Shown piece by piece: positions 321 to 17,467 of a DNA stretch of 24,265 nucleotides; position 1 is the stretch's first letter, and the number at the start of each line of letters is the position of its first letter. The stretch is taken from positions 1 through 24,265 of IMG/VR virus record IMGVR_UViG_3300030329_003769; one strand, 5' to 3'. The notes under the pieces were generated by a model. It was not told the origin of the DNA and ran no database searches. It worked only from the letters and a program-made list of their open reading frames with translations. This DNA is from a virus. Both the position numbers and the translations under genes were made by a program.

Positions 321-421
321 TGGCCCGTCTCCTTGCCGAGCTGGTCCTGTCCGCGTCCGCCTTCGGACTGGTCTGGCTTGCCGCGTCCGCCTTCGGGCTG
401 TGGATGTGGGGTGGGATGTGA
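317..421 (+). CDS. Micro-gene: 34-aa hydrophobic peptide with an internal repeat
   Basis: This ORF starts at ATG 317 (ATGA overlap with the previous stop) and ends at TGA 419-421, which itself overlaps the next GTG start as GTGA. The 34-aa product is almost wholly hydrophobic after MMARLLAEL, long enough for one membrane-spanning helix. It contains a direct duplication, SASAFGL ... AASAFGL, encoded by two near-identical copies of CCGCGTCCGCCTTCGG. Start and stop are both locked into its neighbours by 4-nt overlaps, which is the main argument that it is translated. A membrane-acting early peptide is an inference from hydrophobicity only; it may also be just a translational relay. Confidence 0.5.
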   Translation: MMARLLAELVLSASAFGLVWLAASAFGLWMWGGM

Positions 422-693
422 AACCCTACACCCTCCACCTCTACCCGTCCGAGCTGGCGGCGCTGTCGTTCCTCACCGGGAGGGGGTACTTCCCCCGGGA
501 GGCATGGGACGCACTCGAACGTATCGACGGCGATGGACTAGACAACCCTGACGCGCCCGGGGTATGGGCTATCCCCGAACACGCGGCGTGGTCTATCTTG
601 GAACTGGTGAGCGATGATCCCGACGCCTATGCGGCGTGCGCTGCTCCTGAACTGCGGCGCAAGCTGTGGCAGTTGTGGGAGTCCATCGTGTAG
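418..693 (+). CDS. Hypothetical 91-aa early phage protein
   Basis: I prefer the GTG at 418, in a GTGA overlap with the preceding stop, over the in-frame ATG at 400, which would overlap the previous gene by 22 nt. The product is acidic and rich in Trp and Leu. It begins (M)KPYTLHLYPSEL, has a GRGYFPREAWDAL segment near residues 22-34 and ends in a helical stretch, LRRKLWQLWESIV. I recognise no family. Its TAG stop (691-693) is followed within 10 nt by the hammerhead ribozyme at 703-752, so cleavage would put a new mRNA 3' end about 53 nt past this stop. Confidence 0.65.
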   Translation: MKPYTLHLYPSELAALSFLTGRGYFPREAWDALERIDGDGLDNPDAPGVWAIPEHAAWSILELVSDDPDAYAACAAPELRRKLWQLWESIV

Positions 694-702
694 CCCGGCA
701 CT

Positions 703-752
703 GCGGCACTGATGAGGGCGTAAGCCCGAAACGCCCCCCGGGCGTCTGTCGC
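703..752 (+). ncRNA. Hammerhead ribozyme (type I arrangement, GUC cleavage after 746)
   Basis: All core elements are present in order. Stem I 5' strand is GCGGCA (703-708), followed by CTGATGA (709-715). Stem II is GGGC (716-719), GTAA loop, GCCC (724-727), followed by GAA (728-730). Stem III is A731 plus CGCCC (732-736), CCC loop, GGGCG (740-744) plus T745. Cleavage position 17 is C746, and stem I 3' strand is TGTCGC (747-752). A731 pairs with T745 and A708 with T747 as the fold requires; stem I has one G-T wobble (706/749). The cleavage triplet is the favoured GUC. Stems II and III are capped and stem I is open, which is type I topology. Self-cleavage is inferred from the known fold; I have not tested it. 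It fills the gap between two co-directional genes, so it should split their shared mRNA. Confidence 0.88.
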
Positions 753-772
753 TACTGACTCAACATCAGACA

Positions 773-788
773 AGGGCACACCTATGTC
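773..788 (+). promoter_or_regulatory. Repeated translation-initiation leader, copy 1
   Basis: AGGGCACACCTATGTC spans the start codon (784-786) of the 105-aa gene and recurs exactly at 4780-4795 around the ATG of the ERF gene. The AGGG lies 7 nt before the ATG and is a modest Shine-Dalgarno match. Identity over 16 nt, in front of two proteins that differ after the second residue, suggests a shared initiation or regulatory site rather than coding homology. Confidence 0.5.
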
Positions 789-1101
789 AGACTACGATCG
801 CCGCAGCTACTACGCCACCGTCCGCGCCATCGCTGCCGAGGTGGCGGAGCTTCCTGAAGACGACCAATACGACCGACTGCATGAGGAGGTCGATGGATCG
901 GCGTGGATTATCTACACACACGCCCAACGGCAGGTGCTGCGCCACACGGACAATGAAGACGCCGTTGAGGATGTCTATGGTTCGGACTGGCTTTCCATGT
1001 GTGAGACGTGGGACAAGGCTCACACGGCGCGCGCCTACTTCGCCATGTACCAGGACATCGCCGACGAACTCTACAGGATGGAACGTGCGTCAGCTTGCTA
1101 G
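784..1101 (+). CDS. Hypothetical 105-aa acidic phage protein
   Basis: The ATG at 784 is preceded by AGGGCACACCT, a leader also found before the ERF gene. The protein is acidic and aromatic-rich, with ELPEDDQYDRLHEEVDGS near residues 22-39, a WIIYTHAQRQVLRH stretch near 41-54 and an acidic HTDNEDAVEDVYG segment after it. Small proteins of this kind are common among phage early genes, but I cannot name a function. Its mRNA would start at 747 if the upstream ribozyme cleaves, giving a 37-nt leader. It is followed by a 17-nt overlap with a GTG-started micro-gene. Confidence 0.7.
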   Translation: MSDYDRRSYYATVRAIAAEVAELPEDDQYDRLHEEVDGSAWIIYTHAQRQVLRHTDNEDAVEDVYGSDWLSMCETWDKAHTARAYFAMYQDIADELYRMERASAC

Positions 1102-5456: not shown

Positions 5457-5806
5457 GCGAGCAACCTGACCCGGTGCTGACCGAGCGCAGCCGTCCCGTT
5501 CGAGCCGACTTAAACATCGGCGTAGCCGGGGGAAACCCCGGCCTGCTCCAAGACCTGCTTGACCGCCTGGCCTTGGGAGAGCAGCGCTACGGCGTAGAAC
5601 TGCACAGCTACTGTGGGAGGGATCTACTGCGAGATGCCTACGAGGAAGCTCTCGACGGCTACATCTACCTCAACGCATACCTCTCAGAGAGGAGCAGATC
5701 CTACCCGCTCGACGCGGAAGAGCTGCGCGCCATCGTCCAGGCGACCACCTGCTCCTACGCTTTGCTCGCCGAGCTTCGGTACCTGATGGCCGCGAGGGCG
5801 GGGTGA
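5453..5806 (+). CDS. MazG-like (all-alpha NTP pyrophosphohydrolase-like) protein
   Basis: The GTG start at 5453 overlaps the ERF stop as GTGA. The 117-aa product contains a segment reading RYGVELHSYCGRDLLRDAYE, then EALDGYIYLNAYL, near residues 45-77. This matches the pattern of small phage MazG-like proteins, with an EExxD metal-binding triad (E64, E65, D68) on a helix. That family hydrolyses (d)NTPs to monophosphates and is thought to modulate nucleotide pools or alarmones. A second acidic motif expected in true enzymes is less clear here (DAEEL, 87-91), so activity is uncertain. It ends with a GTGA overlap into the next gene, so this is one translationally coupled run. Confidence 0.5.
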   Translation: MSEQPDPVLTERSRPVRADLNIGVAGGNPGLLQDLLDRLALGEQRYGVELHSYCGRDLLRDAYEEALDGYIYLNAYLSERSRSYPLDAEELRAIVQATTCSYALLAELRYLMAARAG

Positions 5807-6243
5807 CACTATTTCCGCTGACCTTGAAGGAGGCGAACGCGATCGTCGAGAAGTGGCACCGTCACCACAAGCCAGTAGTCGGGTGTCGGTTTGCAATCGG
5901 AGTATCTGTTGACCAAGAGTGTGTTGGCGTGGCCATTGTGGGACGACCCCTTGCGCGAATGTTGGACGACGGATGGACGGCAGAGGTGACGCGATGCGCA
6001 ACGGATGGAACCAGGAACGCCTGCTCCAAGCTCTACGGAGCCGCGTGGCGAGCTTGGCGCGCCATGGGTGGGCGTCGGTTGGTGACCTACACCCTCCCGT
6101 CGGAGGGCGGAGCTTCACTGCGTGGCGCAGGATGGACCTGTTTGGGTGAAGCGGGCGGAGGGTCGTGGTCACGGAAGGATCGGCCACGGATCGACCTTCA
6201 CCCCACACAAGTAAAGTTTCGCTGGGAGAAAACGAATGATTAG
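5803..6243 (+). CDS. XF1762-family (GNAT-like) phage protein
   Basis: The GTG start at 5803 overlaps the previous stop as GTGA. The 146-aa protein closely follows the XF1762-type phage/prophage family: PLTLKEANAIVEKWHRHHKP near the N-terminus, then GVAIVGRPLARMLDDG, EVTRCATDGTRNACSKLYGAAWRA (about 62-85), GGRRLVTYTLPSEGGASLRGAGW (about 89-111) and SWSRKDRPR near the end. The fold is thought to be acetyltransferase-like, but the substrate is unknown; these genes usually lie among phage replication and recombination genes, as here. The C-terminus overlaps the RuvC-like start at 6236 by 8 nt. Confidence 0.8.
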   Translation: MTLFPLTLKEANAIVEKWHRHHKPVVGCRFAIGVSVDQECVGVAIVGRPLARMLDDGWTAEVTRCATDGTRNACSKLYGAAWRAWRAMGGRRLVTYTLPSEGGASLRGAGWTCLGEAGGGSWSRKDRPRIDLHPTQVKFRWEKTND

Positions 6244-10870: not shown

Positions 10871-13800
10871 TCATGGAGCATTTGGGTCGGCCTTCTTGTG
10901 AAGGCGCCCCATCCTCTTCGCGTTGAAGTACAGCGCGCGAGCAGGGTCGGGCAGCGTGATCGGCGTCTCCGCTCCCGCCATAAACAGCATGGGGTTCGCC
11001 AGGGCGCGGGCACCCGGGAAGGTGAACTCGTTACCAAGCATCCCCATCGAGGTCTTGGTCCAGTCAGTTGTGGTGCGCTGCACCCCGAGCTGCATGAGCG
11101 CCATCATCACGCGAGTGAAGTTCGCTTCATCTTCCGGTGTGGAGAAGTAATACTCACGATGCCCAGCTTCGGGGTCTTGTGGATCAATCGCAGATCCCCG
11201 GCCCGGCTTCTCTACCTTTGCGCTTTCGGGCCCGGTCGGGGTGATATTGAACACCCTCTTGAGGTAAGGCCAAGTCGTGTTCGGGCCGTTGCGGATCGCC
11301 CACTCAACCACGGGAGTGGGCACCTTGTACCCAAGGCTCCCCTCCTTGCGGTCTGAAAGCATCACCTCGCTCACTATTCCACTGATGATGGGAGCAAGAT
11401 TCTCTTCTACCACCGTTTCCCCAGCCCGCTCCCAGAACCTGTTGTTCTTGCTGGTAGTCTGAAGCAAGTAGGAGGCAAGGTTCGTCATGTCAGCGAAGGC
11501 TTCCATGTTGGGCATTGAAGGCCCATAGATAGCCGCACTTAGCCCTTCGTCCACGATGTACTGATCGCTGAGCAGGGGCCTCACCCTTGCGTAGTCTGGG
11601 CCAAGCATCCCAGCGTCGTTGCGCTGCTGGTGGTTGTCCATGAAGTTCACCATTCGGACAAACTGCTTAGGATCCCGCGCCAAGCTCTCCATCATCTCCA
11701 CAGTATTGACGAAGCGGAAGGTCGCGAACAGCACATAGCGGTTGAGATTGTTACGGATCGCTGCCGGGACTCGGCCATAGTCGAGCACAACAGCCCGAGC
11801 GAGGCGTGCGGCCTGAGCCTCGGTCATGCCGTCCTTCAGCGCGGTCGCGAACATGTTCTCGCGGAAGGCTTTGTCTGTGGCGTTGGCTACGTACTGAGCA
11901 AACCCTGTGGCAGTGGGGTCCAGCTCTCTTGCGATGCGACGGGCTACCCCCCTCACGCCAGGCGGAAGTGATGTCCCGTCTGCCATGACGCCTGCTGCAC
12001 GGATTAGCTCCGTGTTGAAGGAGTCGTTGAACTCGACCTGGCCCCGCGAGATGAGGATGTTGTTGCGCCCGATCGCGTCGTCGAGTTCCTGCCGCGTCCA
12101 CGACCGGCCTGTGTCCGACGTGAACATGATGTCCGACGGACTCAGCTTCGCGTTGGCGTTGACAAGCGGCTTCCCGGCGATTCGCCTAAGCTCTTGCCCC
12201 ACGTCACCTGCCTGGGATCGGGCGCCAGCCCCGATGGGCATCCTGATCGCGTTCGCAGCGCCCACGGTTGTCAGCCCGATGATGGGCGCAGTGAGCAGGT
12301 TCATCCCGATGTATCGGGTGTTCGGCGCGGGCACGACGTAAGGGATAGCCAAGTCCTTATCGTGCTCATAGACGCCTAAGTAGAGTCCACCACCAAGCAA
12401 CCCTCCAGCCGCATACCGACGAGATGTTGTGACCACATCCGCCAAAAGATGTAGGGCAAAGCTCGTGGCCGACCCAGCCTTCGCAGCAGACAAGAGCTTC
12501 TTACTCCTAAAGGTAGTCCACCGCTCTGCTTGCTTTAGCTGCTCAAGGTTCCGCGCCAGCTTCCCGCTTGCAGCACTCTCCTTGAGTGCAGCAGCTGCCT
12601 CATTCCATTGGCTACCCAGCACCATCAGCGCGGGGTCGTTGAGGTCCATCTTTGCGGCCATTTGCTGAAGGTTGCCCGCATCTCCCTTCATGGCGCCGGG
12701 GGTATGTCCCATCATGCGATGACTTGTCGCCATCTCCTCGACCAAAGGGGCAACATAAGTCTTAGTGGCCTGATCGATGATTGCGTTTGAGATTATCGGC
12801 ACAAGCTGATCGTCAGGAATATCCCGCATCAGACGAGCGAACAGCTTGTCAACGTCATTATTGTACGCAACGTCAATCGCGTCTTCAGGGTCGAGTGCCT
12901 CTCCAAGCCCGCTAAGGGGGCTTGCCTTCAGCTTCCCACGGTACTGTTCCAGCAGCCCTTTCACGTGTTCGGAAACCGTCCTCTTCTGAAGCTCTCTGCC
13001 ACCGCCTACCTCAAGTGAAACGCCGCCCTCGCCAAAGACGTCTGTCATAACGTCTGTCATCTCATCAGATGTCGCACGAACCGCGCCACGCTCAAGAGCT
13101 TTCATCAGTGTGTTTTCGGCGACATTGAGTCGCGCAGCAGGGTTCATCCCGATGTTCAGTGCCCCAGACATATTGTCCAGCGCATGGATTACTGACCCGC
13201 TGCCAGGCCCACCAACAAGAGGCTCAAAGGTGCCGTTCCGGGTGACCTCAAAGTTCCCATCTGCCTTGCGTCCAGCTGCCACAGCTGCTTGATACGCGGG
13301 GTCTTGGGGCTTTGCGCCCAAAGCACGAAGGACCGACCCTCGAACATCCAGCGGAAAGCGCGCGGTGGTAACGACCCGGTCTGGGCGAGCGCCTTCGAGA
13401 GATGGCATCAGATCAACGAATACCCCAGGGTCATCTCTGCGTAGCTGCTCCACAACGCGCCTTATAAGCAGCTTGTCGTCTACGCCGAGCGCCCACCCAA
13501 ACAGGGTATCGGCAATGGCGTCGATACCATAGCCGGGCAGCCCCCGCTGCAATCCCATCCCCTTTAGGGAAGTGTCTGCTGCCCTGATCTCTTCGATGAT
13601 GTCGCGAAGATCGGCGGTAGTGATGTCTCGATAGGCGCTTGCCCCCAGGTTAGGGCGGGGGGGCACCGGTGACTTCTCACGCCTTGCCCTGGCCGCATCG
13701 ATCTTCCAGTCCTCAAGGACGGCGCGGGGACCTGTCCCGGGCCTTCCTTTGGGCGACGGCTTGAGGATCATGCGATCAACGACGCCGGCCGCCTTGAGCT

Positions 13801-16800
13801 TTTCAAAGACATCGGCCCCAAAGAAGGTGCGCAGAATCTCTTCCCAGGACTCTTCGAGGACATAGACAGCCGCACGATCAACCGCGACTTTCCTAATCTC
13901 TGCTGTCACGCCCTTCTGCCCCAAGCCCTCCACTGCCTTTCCAGCACCCGCCTGATAAGCGGCGTAGTAATAGGCTTGGCTCTCAGTCATGCCGAGCTGG
14001 TCTTGAAGATGCCTGACCTGATGCTCCAGCTTTTCAACCGCCGACCTTACGAGTGCGTCCGTGCGCCGTCCCACGACGTTGTTTAGGCCGACCTGACCAC
14101 GATCTTTGTTGCCCTTCAGGCGAGCAGCCTCCGCACGAACCTCTTTGTAGAGGTTGTCGCTCAAGGCGCCACGCTCTCTCTTGAGCGTATTCCACGCCTC
14201 CTGCCAGGCAAACGGCACAAGCTGTTGGTCCAGCTCACCACCGTCTGCCCTCTTGACTTCCCTCTTGAAGACCTTCCTTACGCGGTTCATCGCTTTAGCG
14301 ATTTGCTGCCCACCCAACTCCTTGACGATGGTGCTGGCGTCATCGACCTTGGGGCCCCACCCCCCGCGATAGCCAAACAACGAAGTCCTGCTGACCCTCG
14401 CCTCCGGTGCGGACTCCAGCCCGATGTTGACGCCAGGGGCCCGTGCACGCTCTGTCTGCCGCCCCTCGAACAGCGCCTCTTTCGCGCGACTGCCCAGCAC
14501 ATCCTCAAACGCCCGGGTCAAAAGGGCGTCCTGGACGAGCCCATGCTCGATGGCGTTCAGCTCTTCCCCAGCCTCAAGCCTCCTCACGATAGCCTTGAGC
14601 TTGGCAGATCGTTCCACGTTGCCCGCACCAATGGCCGCCTCGAACCGCCGGGCAGTAGCTGGGTCAGAGTAGCGATACCAGTTGTCGCCGCCTAAATCCT
14701 GAGCAGCGACCTTTTGGTTTGTGACGGTCCAACCATCAGGCCCATCACGACTCACCCGGCTCGCGACTGCGTCGTATACCTCTTTAGTCAGCAGCTTCCG
14801 GGGAGCCATCAAGGTCTTCGTTATGAAGGTCATGTCCCTTGGGACAGCGTTTTCCAGCGTGGCCTCTACCGCCCGACCAGCTGCGGCAGACGCAGCCCGG
14901 TGGACTTCTTGTGGGGAGGTGGCGAGCGTTACGCTGTTGAACGGCTTGTCTCCCAAGCGCCGGTTCAAGATGCGGCTGAGGGACCCCTCGGCCCGAACGG
15001 CAGCCTTGCTGTCTGCTGCACGTAGAACCTGGGAGCCCACCTCATGGATAGCCCCCATCACGGGCCTGGCGTTACGGATGGGGATCGCTCCCCCAGTCGG
15101 AAAGACGTCCTCGATGACGTCCTTCACCTTTTCAGTGTGCTCTCCACGAGCAATCCTCTCCACCCGCTGGATACCCCTGATGTAGGCGCGGTCCAAGCCG
15201 TGAGCATCAACCTTGTCGAGGATGCGATTGGCTTTCGCCATCTCGGAAAGTTCAGCAGAAGCATCAATGGTGCGCGCCACATCTGAGTAGGCGGACGCGA
15301 TGTGAGACGAGGTCGCTACCGACAGCTTGCGCTTCTCGGTCCGTGTGAGGGCGTGGTTCCTGTCTCGGTTCAGCAGGCCCGCGTCTTGGAGTAGAAGCCT
15401 CGCCTGGGGGCTGTTCTCTGCCAAGTCACTGAGCTGGCCAACAGTGATGGGTCCATCGCCTGCCACTCGAACAGCGGCGGCCAAGGAGTAGGGGGCGATG
15501 GTGTGCTCTGCGACCGTCTCCCCTACGACACGACTCACGCTGTTGACATCTTTGAGGACATCGAGCGCGTCACGATCTAAGTCAACGTGCTCGTTAAGCT
15601 CCTGCGTGATGCGGATCACCTTCGCGCGATTGGCCGCCTCGGTCGGGTCAGCCACCACCGCAGCAATCTTGTTTACAGCGGTGGGCGCCTTTCCGGTTGC
15701 ACGAGCAGCACGAGCAGCACCCTTGGCCGCCTTACCGATTGCGGCAAAAGGACCTATCCCGTATGGGACCTCTCCGATAATCCCCATCCAAAAGGGCATA
15801 TCAGGCCCAGTGTTACGAAACTCCAAATAGTCCTCAGCAAGAACGCCATACCCGGGCTGAAGCTCGTACTCACTTCCCTCACCGAAGTCTGCGACATACG
15901 CCGGGATGCTCATCAGTTCATCACCCAGGCTCCTCCCCCGGGCGAGGGCGTGCGCTGTCCTGGCGATGAAGCTGCCCGACTGTGCGGCGGCGCGATGGGC
16001 GGTGGGGTCTACGCCTGAAGCGGCCCCTCTCTGGATCGCCTGAAAGGGAACCGGTAGTGATGCGAGCGCACCAAACCGTCCAGTCCTGCCACCAGCTGCG
16101 TGGTGGATCGATCCGGTCGTATACCGCTCGACTTCCTCTTCGGTAAACCCGGATTCAAGCAGACTATCCCGCATAAAGCGGTGGATCTGATAGGCCGCAT
16201 CGTTGGGGTTGACCGGCTCTCCGGTCTCAGGGTCCTGCTCCCAGAACAACGGAGCATATTGAAGGACAGCTTCATTCACAGCTGTAGGCACTATCCCCGA
16301 GACACGCAGCATCGCCGCCAGCGGAGTCTCAATGATCCGCCCACTTCCCCGCTCCCGCACCGACAACAGATTCTTGATCGCCGGCTCTGAAGTATCGACT
16401 ATCTGCTCTTCAAGCAGACGCTGACCCTGCTCGTCTAAGACAAGGCCACCAGAAGCCTTGAAGCGCTTTACGTTCTCCCACGCCTTGGCCTCCTGCATCC
16501 TTTTGATTTGCTCAGGAGTTAGCGCTTCCTGCCGCGCCATCGATTCCCAGGCAAGCTCAGCATCTGTCGGGTCACGAAGCTCACCCGTCTCAGGGTCCTC
16601 GTACTTCTTGACCAGGATGGTCTTCGTAGGATCACCAGGCCACGGCTCATCCACCTCCACGATCTTTGAGCGCCTGTACCAAGGCGGAACAAAGGGCAGA
16701 TATTGGTCCGCAAAGCCACCAATACCCGTCGAGGTGCGCTGCCCCTGAACATCTACAGCGCGCTCGCCACGCTCAAGAGCCTCCGCTCGCGCCTGATCCC

Positions 16801-17467
16801 ACGCAGGCTTTTCAATAAGCCGCCTGTGCGCCTCCTCTTCCGCAGCCGTCTTGCCAAAGCCTTCATTCACCTGAAGATGGTGCACCAGCTCCCTGATCTC
16901 AGCGTTTAGTTTGCGACCCTCTTCAATCTTCTTGATGGACAGATCCAGCCGGCGACGCTCCAGTTCCCAAGCCCGCTTACGCACCGCGTCTCGCGTTTGG
17001 GTCTCAGCAGCGCTCAAAGCCTTAAACGCCTCTTCGCGACCGGTGCCAAACGGCCTCTTAGAACCACCGGGAGGAGCCACCCACCGCAGCCCCGACTGAG
17101 ACTGGGGCACAAGGGGCTGGTTGGGGTCCCGCTCGCGAGTCTCATCCTCGATCGGTCGAGGATTCGTTATCGGAGACTCAGGATACTCATACTCCCAGAG
17201 CACTGGGGGAGACTCAGGAAGGTCTCGAAGCGCACGTTCTACGAACAGCTTCTCCTCATCAGCCTTCGCTTTACTGATGTCAGCCGTTGTCATTCCAACA
17301 AATGGACTGTCGCTGGCCATGGGAGCGCCCGGAGGAGGACTCCACGCGGGCGGTGCGGGGCTCTTTACCTGCTCCCCCTGCGCACCCTTCATGCTACGAA
17401 ACAGCTCTACAGCTTCCTGATCGCCGTTCTCCTCTGCCCTCTGGATCATCTCGTCGAGGGTGGGCAT
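10871..17467 (-). CDS. Giant internal virion (ejection) protein, T7 gp16-like position, 2198 aa
   Basis: At 2198 aa this is the largest gene of the window. It starts MPTLDEMIQRAEENGDQEAV and is mostly helical, charged and low in Cys, with long coiled-coil-like stretches. Hydrophobic, Gly/Ala-rich patches occur near 555-590 (GIIGEVPYGIGPFAAIG) and 1680-1745 (GGLLGGGLYLGVY ... LLTAPIIGLTTVGAANAI). Near 1892-1926, DYGRVPAAIRNNLNRYVLFATF resembles the C-terminal part of large polyvalent phage proteins. I see no lytic transglycosylase, protease or RNA polymerase motif. It follows 279- and 529-aa proteins, giving the small-medium-large series of T7 gp14-gp15-gp16, which are ejected into the cell and form a trans-envelope channel. 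An injected protein is therefore the best inference. Start overlaps the previous stop as TAATG. Confidence 0.7.
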   Translation of the reverse strand: MPTLDEMIQRAEENGDQEAVELFRSMKGAQGEQVKSPAPPAWSPPPGAPMASDSPFVGMTTADISKAKADEEKLFVERALRDLPESPPVLWEYEYPESPITNPRPIEDETRERDPNQPLVPQSQSGLRWVAPPGGSKRPFGTGREEAFKALSAAETQTRDAVRKRAWELERRRLDLSIKKIEEGRKLNAEIRELVHHLQVNEGFGKTAAEEEAHRRLIEKPAWDQARAEALERGERAVDVQGQRTSTGIGGFADQYLPFVPPWYRRSKIVEVDEPWPGDPTKTILVKKYEDPETGELRDPTDAELAWESMARQEALTPEQIKRMQEAKAWENVKRFKASGGLVLDEQGQRLLEEQIVDTSEPAIKNLLSVRERGSGRIIETPLAAMLRVSGIVPTAVNEAVLQYAPLFWEQDPETGEPVNPNDAAYQIHRFMRDSLLESGFTEEEVERYTTGSIHHAAGGRTGRFGALASLPVPFQAIQRGAASGVDPTAHRAAAQSGSFIARTAHALARGRSLGDELMSIPAYVADFGEGSEYELQPGYGVLAEDYLEFRNTGPDMPFWMGIIGEVPYGIGPFAAIGKAAKGAARAARATGKAPTAVNKIAAVVADPTEAANRAKVIRITQELNEHVDLDRDALDVLKDVNSVSRVVGETVAEHTIAPYSLAAAVRVAGDGPITVGQLSDLAENSPQARLLLQDAGLLNRDRNHALTRTEKRKLSVATSSHIASAYSDVARTIDASAELSEMAKANRILDKVDAHGLDRAYIRGIQRVERIARGEHTEKVKDVIEDVFPTGGAIPIRNARPVMGAIHEVGSQVLRAADSKAAVRAEGSLSRILNRRLGDKPFNSVTLATSPQEVHRAASAAAGRAVEATLENAVPRDMTFITKTLMAPRKLLTKEVYDAVASRVSRDGPDGWTVTNQKVAAQDLGGDNWYRYSDPATARRFEAAIGAGNVERSAKLKAIVRRLEAGEELNAIEHGLVQDALLTRAFEDVLGSRAKEALFEGRQTERARAPGVNIGLESAPEARVSRTSLFGYRGGWGPKVDDASTIVKELGGQQIAKAMNRVRKVFKREVKRADGGELDQQLVPFAWQEAWNTLKRERGALSDNLYKEVRAEAARLKGNKDRGQVGLNNVVGRRTDALVRSAVEKLEHQVRHLQDQLGMTESQAYYYAAYQAGAGKAVEGLGQKGVTAEIRKVAVDRAAVYVLEESWEEILRTFFGADVFEKLKAAGVVDRMILKPSPKGRPGTGPRAVLEDWKIDAARARREKSPVPPRPNLGASAYRDITTADLRDIIEEIRAADTSLKGMGLQRGLPGYGIDAIADTLFGWALGVDDKLLIRRVVEQLRRDDPGVFVDLMPSLEGARPDRVVTTARFPLDVRGSVLRALGAKPQDPAYQAAVAAGRKADGNFEVTRNGTFEPLVGGPGSGSVIHALDNMSGALNIGMNPAARLNVAENTLMKALERGAVRATSDEMTDVMTDVFGEGGVSLEVGGGRELQKRTVSEHVKGLLEQYRGKLKASPLSGLGEALDPEDAIDVAYNNDVDKLFARLMRDIPDDQLVPIISNAIIDQATKTYVAPLVEEMATSHRMMGHTPGAMKGDAGNLQQMAAKMDLNDPALMVLGSQWNEAAAALKESAASGKLARNLEQLKQAERWTTFRSKKLLSAAKAGSATSFALHLLADVVTTSRRYAAGGLLGGGLYLGVYEHDKDLAIPYVVPAPNTRYIGMNLLTAPIIGLTTVGAANAIRMPIGAGARSQAGDVGQELRRIAGKPLVNANAKLSPSDIMFTSDTGRSWTRQELDDAIGRNNILISRGQVEFNDSFNTELIRAAGVMADGTSLPPGVRGVARRIARELDPTATGFAQYVANATDKAFRENMFATALKDGMTEAQAARLARAVVLDYGRVPAAIRNNLNRYVLFATFRFVNTVEMMESLARDPKQFVRMVNFMDNHQQRNDAGMLGPDYARVRPLLSDQYIVDEGLSAAIYGPSMPNMEAFADMTNLASYLLQTTSKNNRFWERAGETVVEENLAPIISGIVSEVMLSDRKEGSLGYKVPTPVVEWAIRNGPNTTWPYLKRVFNITPTGPESAKVEKPGRGSAIDPQDPEAGHREYYFSTPEDEANFTRVMMALMQLGVQRTTTDWTKTSMGMLGNEFTFPGARALANPMLFMAGAETPITLPDPARALYFNAKRMGRLHKKADPNAP

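Follow-up and report, generated by a model that had tools for sequence, protein, structure and literature searches.

A type I hammerhead ribozyme between small genes of a phage replication module and type III hammerheads at the same site in relatives

Results

Genomic context of the ribozyme

The window, that is, the whole stretch of 24,265 nucleotides analysed here (IMGVR_UViG_3300030329_003769, positions 1 to 24,265), is a 24-kb viral fragment given as one strand, and its VapE-like helicase/primase, ERF, Mom-like and amidase/virion genes indicate a phage origin. The small genes around the ribozyme precede the primase-helicase gene, and all of them run in the same direction. The two flanking small genes belong to the replication module. 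The location of the ribozyme between them, given in a preliminary description of the sequence, was upheld, and the filling of the gap by the ribozyme is typical of the type I group. The upstream gene, of which the stop codon TAG lies 18 nt before residue C3 of the ribozyme, has no Pfam or PHROGs family, and the downstream gene, of which the ATG lies 37 nt past the predicted cut, has no confident one. Neither a sigma-70-like promoter nor an intrinsic terminator was found in positions 1-2600.

A blastn search of positions 400-1250 against phage records gave no match. The flanking proteins led to no useful locus as single-sequence queries, and contig L003, which came from such a search, was rejected as a chance match. 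Among named phages the primase showed only distant VapE-type matches, and a primase profile search in bacterial genomes returned no relative. Elsewhere in the window, the gene of a Mom-like DNA modification protein (5803-6243; phrog_1384, E 9e-37) adjoins the gene of the ERF annealing protein, and a very long ORF of 2198 aa is present on the minus strand (10871-17467), within the minus-strand gene block of the second half of the record.

Structure of the ribozyme

A complete type I hammerhead ribozyme is present at positions 703-752 of the plus strand (Table 1), with an intact core, 6, 4 and 6 pairs in stems I, II and III, respectively, and one G-T wobble among all these pairs. The residues that define a hammerhead, i.e. 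the invariant core CUGANGA...GAA, A15.1-U16.1 and H17, are all found, and three helices surround the core in the fold as well as in the covariance model R1 described below. Both also give the type I topology, in which stem I is open at its ends and stems II and III are closed. The minimum-energy fold of 703-752, at -23.0 kcal/mol, is exactly the proposed three-way structure. The letters and coordinates assigned to every element in the preliminary description proved right to the base. Its identification of a type I hammerhead, with a predicted cut after C746, stands as a reading of the sequence and is strengthened by the relatives. In a strict type I scan of the window 703-752 was the sole match, while a type II/III scan gave no match in the window and none in an equal amount of simulated sequence. 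In the leader that follows, CATCAG at 764-769 is the exact complement of CTGATG at 709-714 in the core.

Table 1. Elements of the window ribozyme and its flanking genes
Feature	Positions	Strand	Basis or remark
Upstream small gene	400-693	+	97 aa from GTG 400, or 91 aa from GTG 418; stop TAG 691-693
Stem I, 5' strand GCGGCA (positions 2.6-2.1)	703-708	+	Sequence, fold, R1 model
Catalytic core C3-A9, CUGAUGA (CTGATGA)	709-715	+	Sequence, motif scan, R1 model
Stem II GGGC/GCCC (716-719/724-727) with loop GUAA (720-723)	716-727	+	Fold, loop II/1.7 covariation
Core G12-A14, GAA	728-730	+	Sequence, R1 model
Stem III ACGCCC / loop CCC / GGGCGT, including A15.1-U16.1	731-745	+	Fold, R1 model
C17 and predicted scissile linkage C746/U747	746-747	+	Position from hammerhead consensus
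Stem I, 3' strand UGUCGC (1.1-1.6); predicted 5' end of downstream mRNA	747-752	+	Fold, R1 model
U1.7 and A1.8, flanking signature of type I ribozymes with loop II GNAA	753-754	+	Comparison
Shine-Dalgarno-like AAGGG	772-776	+	7 nt before ATG 784
Downstream gene	784-1101	+	105 aa; relatives in L004, L005, L119

Significance against chance and covariance models

A simulation with 400 Markov-chain copies (19.4 Mb strand-bases) of the window gave 12 loose matches, none with all three stems as strong as those at 703-752; the complete motif stands far above chance. For the covariance model R1 we used 29 type I sequences of phages, among them the window ribozyme and some of those of contigs L005 and L013. 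With R1 (cmsearch, filters off) the window ribozyme scored 62.6 bits (E 4.6e-17), against 11.9 bits for the next best match, and the L005 and L013 sites scored 58-63 bits; these scores are high partly by construction, because the same sequences helped to build the model. Covariation in the stems was very strong across the 29 sequences, with both sides of the pairs varying, in a set that had been chosen by pairing. The core-only pattern CTGATGANNNNGTAANNNNGAAAC imposes no pairing and is, hence, a fair test of the wider group in viral contigs. It gave 77 distinct matches, of which 38 had four paired stem II positions, as compared with 1.5 expected, and 37 of these 38 were full hammerheads. Since the pattern search favours GTAA loops, the sample of type I sites is not a census.

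The covariance-model check proposed in the preliminary description gave no match at threshold. A search of the full window with Rfam gave no match with an E value of 1 or lower, and a local Rfam scan gave only RF00008, at 20.6 bits versus a gathering score of 48.5, with an alignment at 676-737 that was rejected, as its stem III is the wrong one. The window ribozyme has the same type I topology and core as Hammerhead_1 (RF00163), but it and its nearest relatives fall below the gathering scores, which are curated search cut-offs and not structural definitions. At gathering scores the hammerheads of L004, L005, L013 and L119 were missed as well, and one hammerhead each was recovered in L039 and L045 (36 bits versus the RF00163 gathering score of 34), two contigs in which the motif scan sees many, most of them missed by Rfam. 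Because complete hammerheads of the relatives are also missed, the negative Rfam result points to a low sensitivity for these forms and would be misleading as a refutation. As the Rfam thresholds fail for the majority of these copies, phage hammerheads are probably under-annotated.

Loop II and residue 1.7

In a contact described previously (PMC2553840), the final A of a GNRA loop II forms an A-U Hoogsteen pair with a U beside residue 1.6. In the window, A723, the final base of the GUAA loop, is predicted to make this tertiary contact with U753, which is residue 1.7. Fast cleavage needs a peripheral contact of stem I with loop II, and the window shows it as a sequence signature only. Of 79 distinct type I phage hammerheads, 46 combine a final A of loop II with U1.7 (A/U) and 30 a final U with A1.7 (U/A), while 3 are exceptions; the rule is obeyed by 49 of 52 distinct combinations of stem I and loop. 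As these sequences are related, the P-value of the test is not to be taken at face value. U1.7 occurs in 40 of the 41 type I ribozymes with a GNAA loop II, while the non-GNAA loops split 6 to 0 and 0 to 32. The loops TTAGA and TGAA, with T as first and A as last base, take U1.7, which argues that the last base of loop II, and neither its first base nor the loop length, sets residue 1.7. Where both loop kinds are present in one contig, 16 of 18 cases separate by cruder length classes, and both exceptions obey the last-base rule. It is possible that U/A and A/U represent two different docking modules rather than one geometry. The swap offers an easy way to predict which natural type I ribozymes are fast.

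Hammerheads at the same site in relatives

The primase-helicase of the window has 15 relatives among viral contigs, most of them without a hammerhead recognisable by the scans used. No Rfam family matched at gathering scores in L006-L012 and L014-L018, from which we take it that these relatives have no other self-cleaving ribozyme. Upstream of the primase-helicase, type I hammerheads are carried by L005 (three) and L013 (two), as compared with the one of the 24-kb window. In the closest relative by primase, L004 (64%), R1 gives only 19 bits. There, a circularly permuted type III hammerhead can be read from the sequence as GGT C/TGCACC-TAATGCC-GGTGCA CTGACGA GCCG-ATGGCA-CGGC GAA ACC, with the predicted cut at the slash after C, and it was confirmed by a type III scan. 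A second type III hammerhead, in the same place before the gene, was found in L119, a contig obtained by a profile search with the downstream protein. No type II hammerhead was found.

The two type III hammerheads (L004:8277-8326 and L119:3929-3978) have the same position before related genes, the same 6-bp stem I and the same 4-bp stem II as the window ribozyme. Unlike it, they are circularly permuted, have an open stem III of only 3 bp and present complementary loops I and II (TGCC/GGCA in L004; TGCT/GGCA in L119), a kind of pseudoknot described previously (PMC3088659). Minimum-energy folding of L004 and L119 yields structures other than the hammerhead. The predicted cut would leave these ribozymes on the downstream mRNA, in a topology different from that of the type I ribozyme of the window.

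Thus, four diverged contigs carry a hammerhead directly 5' of a related downstream gene, of type I in the window and L005 and of type III in L004 and L119. The downstream proteins are 34-44% identical to each other, with about 62% between L004 and L119. A comparison with related phages had been proposed earlier as a check that could refute the ribozyme; the retention of type I before the related gene in L005, and of type III in L004 and L119, is the opposite of a refutation. Relatives of the downstream gene that are more distant (L121, L122, L124 and L125) showed no hammerhead, and L126 is cut off. A blastp comparison revealed no mutual similarity among the upstream genes of the four sites, so that the ribozyme appears to travel with the downstream gene. 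That a hammerhead is kept before the same gene despite an altered strand order suggests that the cut itself is important. The L004 and L119 sites may represent a single event, and four sites are too few for counting changes between types I and III.

Two assignments were discarded, an Ocr-like identity for the L004 gene product (E 0.019, too weak) and a CHK1-like TPR identity for the L005 gene product, for which the match was under its cut-off. In L004:7703-9180 a repeated leader (ATGAGGCACACCATG) is found 5' of several consecutive small genes, with the ribozyme present or absent.

Position relative to stop codons and proposed processing

The typical type I ribozyme begins at the upstream stop codon and ends just 5' of the next ribosome-binding site, with a median of 27 nt from the predicted cut to the ATG. 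An ATG with a Shine-Dalgarno-like site is present at most 54 nt past the ribozyme end in 67% of the sites, as compared with 9.9% of random same-strand points, and in 54 of 82 type I sites the upstream ORF has its stop between -9 and +10 of C3, compared to 4.8% at random points.

Considering the sequence, the structure, the placement between genes and the relatives of the window ribozyme, we propose, with a probability of about 0.85, that it is a natural cis-acting type I phage hammerhead on a polycistronic message of small genes, and that cotranscriptional self-cleavage separates two messages. What we infer from this reading is that the RNA cleaves in vitro and in the cell, that the flanking genes are co-transcribed and that their expression is affected; co-transcription is assumed because no consensus promoter is seen in the first 2600 positions. 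The nascent RNA 703-753 would fold during transcription, with A723 of loop II docking onto U753 next to stem I, and would be cut between C746 and U747. The upstream mRNA would end in two hairpins and carry a 2',3'-cyclic phosphate, while the downstream mRNA would start with a 5'-hydroxyl and a 37-nt leader bearing the ribosome-binding site of gene 784-1101, the chemistry of the ends left by hammerhead cleavage being established (PMC6155905). The likely use would be to uncouple the stability and translation of the neighbouring genes. Such a role in RNA processing, put forward in the preliminary description, is the best-supported reading, albeit an inferred one; its novelty in kind does not stand, as it was already proposed in 2011 (PMC3088659).

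A broader proposal, which we make tentatively and hold to be possible at best, is that the downstream gene owns the hammerhead as an exchangeable cleavage module, in which types I and III interchange and selection would keep the cut and not the sequence or the strand order; together with the overlapping stop codons, this would create a translation-linked control point in phage operons.

The stop codons also bear on a different reading, in which a ribosome ending the upstream gene would cover stem I or the core, so that the RNA would cleave only when this gene is unread, and the ribozyme would be a translation sensor rather than a constitutive processor. The upstream stop is in the core or stem I or just 5' of them, at -18 to +5 of C3, in 71 of the 82 type I sites, often as the core's own UGA, while a stop at -18 to +10 occurs in only 12 of the 122 CTGANGAG sites that are not hammerheads. 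However, short intergenic gaps are favoured anyway in compact phage genomes, the ORF calls are mechanical, and the window stop, at -18, is among the farther ones of the type I set. We consider this reading unlikely, although it is the most serious of the alternatives.

With 700 as the first position of the transcript, the native fold was obtained for all lengths tested. In longer contexts, most of the tested lengths have a minimum-energy fold that is 0.5-4 kcal/mol more stable than the native one, partly because the leader segment CAUCAG (764-769) pairs with CUGAUG of the core. A regulated switch, in which this pairing would block the cut until it is released, would agree with the minimum-energy folds that include 764-769, which prefer the pairing by at most 4 kcal/mol. 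The computed energies ignore the tertiary fold, though, and shorter transcripts are native or within 1.4 kcal/mol of the minimum. Transcription reaches the end of the ribozyme before 764, so that a fast one could act earlier; the segment is also missing from the leaders of L005, L013 and L004, and such a switch is improbable. Still less credit can be given to a pair or array of hammerheads producing circular or ligated RNA, like those of retrozymes and viroid-like RNAs: several hammerheads in series are held by related and unrelated phage contigs, but the window has a single one, the type I copies sit in coding operons by ribosome-binding sites, and spliced or circular products were sought by Perreault et al. 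and none were found (PMC3088659). Finally, a chance or decayed, inactive motif, for which the absence of an Rfam match at threshold could speak, is the least probable reading of all in view of the simulation, the R1 score, the type II/III null scan, the pairing-free CTGATGANNNNGTAANNNNGAAAC test, the hammerheads at the same site in relatives and the A/U covariation that the window fits.

Discussion

The window ribozyme, which we read as a probable self-cleaving processor of the message, belongs to an already published kind of phage hammerhead. Its 6-bp stem I and 4-bp stem II are also those of the sTRSV hammerhead. With this type III ribozyme it shares, in addition, a GNRA-like loop II with a final A and a U next to residue 1.6 (PMC2553840), but in the window stem I is open and residue 1.7 is in the downstream leader and not in a closed loop. 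In 2011, gene-flanking hammerheads of types I-III were described in phages and prophages, with one or more in a genome, and tandem copies associated with phages were shown to cleave both in vitro and in E. coli (Perreault et al., PMC3088659). In a halovirus, the hammerhead precedes the start of an early gene by 13 nt, and the early transcript starts at most 3 nt from the cut (PMC3088659). Like the members of that set, the window ribozyme has a canonical core, is intergenic and is codirectional with small phage genes. Unlike in that study, where gene contexts were not constant (PMC3088659), the relatives of one gene keep an upstream hammerhead in four contigs and in two topologies.

All three hammerhead topologies are already known in phages (PMC7761336). 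Ribozymes are enriched near Mu-like phage genes, it has been suggested that similar locations are taken by ribozymes of different classes (PMC10085705), and the roles of prokaryotic hammerheads have been called open (PMC6155905). What appears to be new here is the exchange of topology before related genes, the A/U-U/A swap and the overlap with stop codons, of which we found no prior description in the literature searched; its coverage is incomplete, and this is not proof of novelty. A conserved site with a changing topology provides a direct test of why phages carry hammerheads.

Many hammerheads per phage contig, of type I with two loop classes together with some of type III, are present mostly between small genes in L039, L045, L057, L058, L066, L090 and L094. 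A long insert of about 34-72 nt, which may hold a further RNA domain, closes the type I stem III at L032:3371-3469, L045:4065-4161, L081:3495-3585, L057:2072-2188 and L094:2766-2884.
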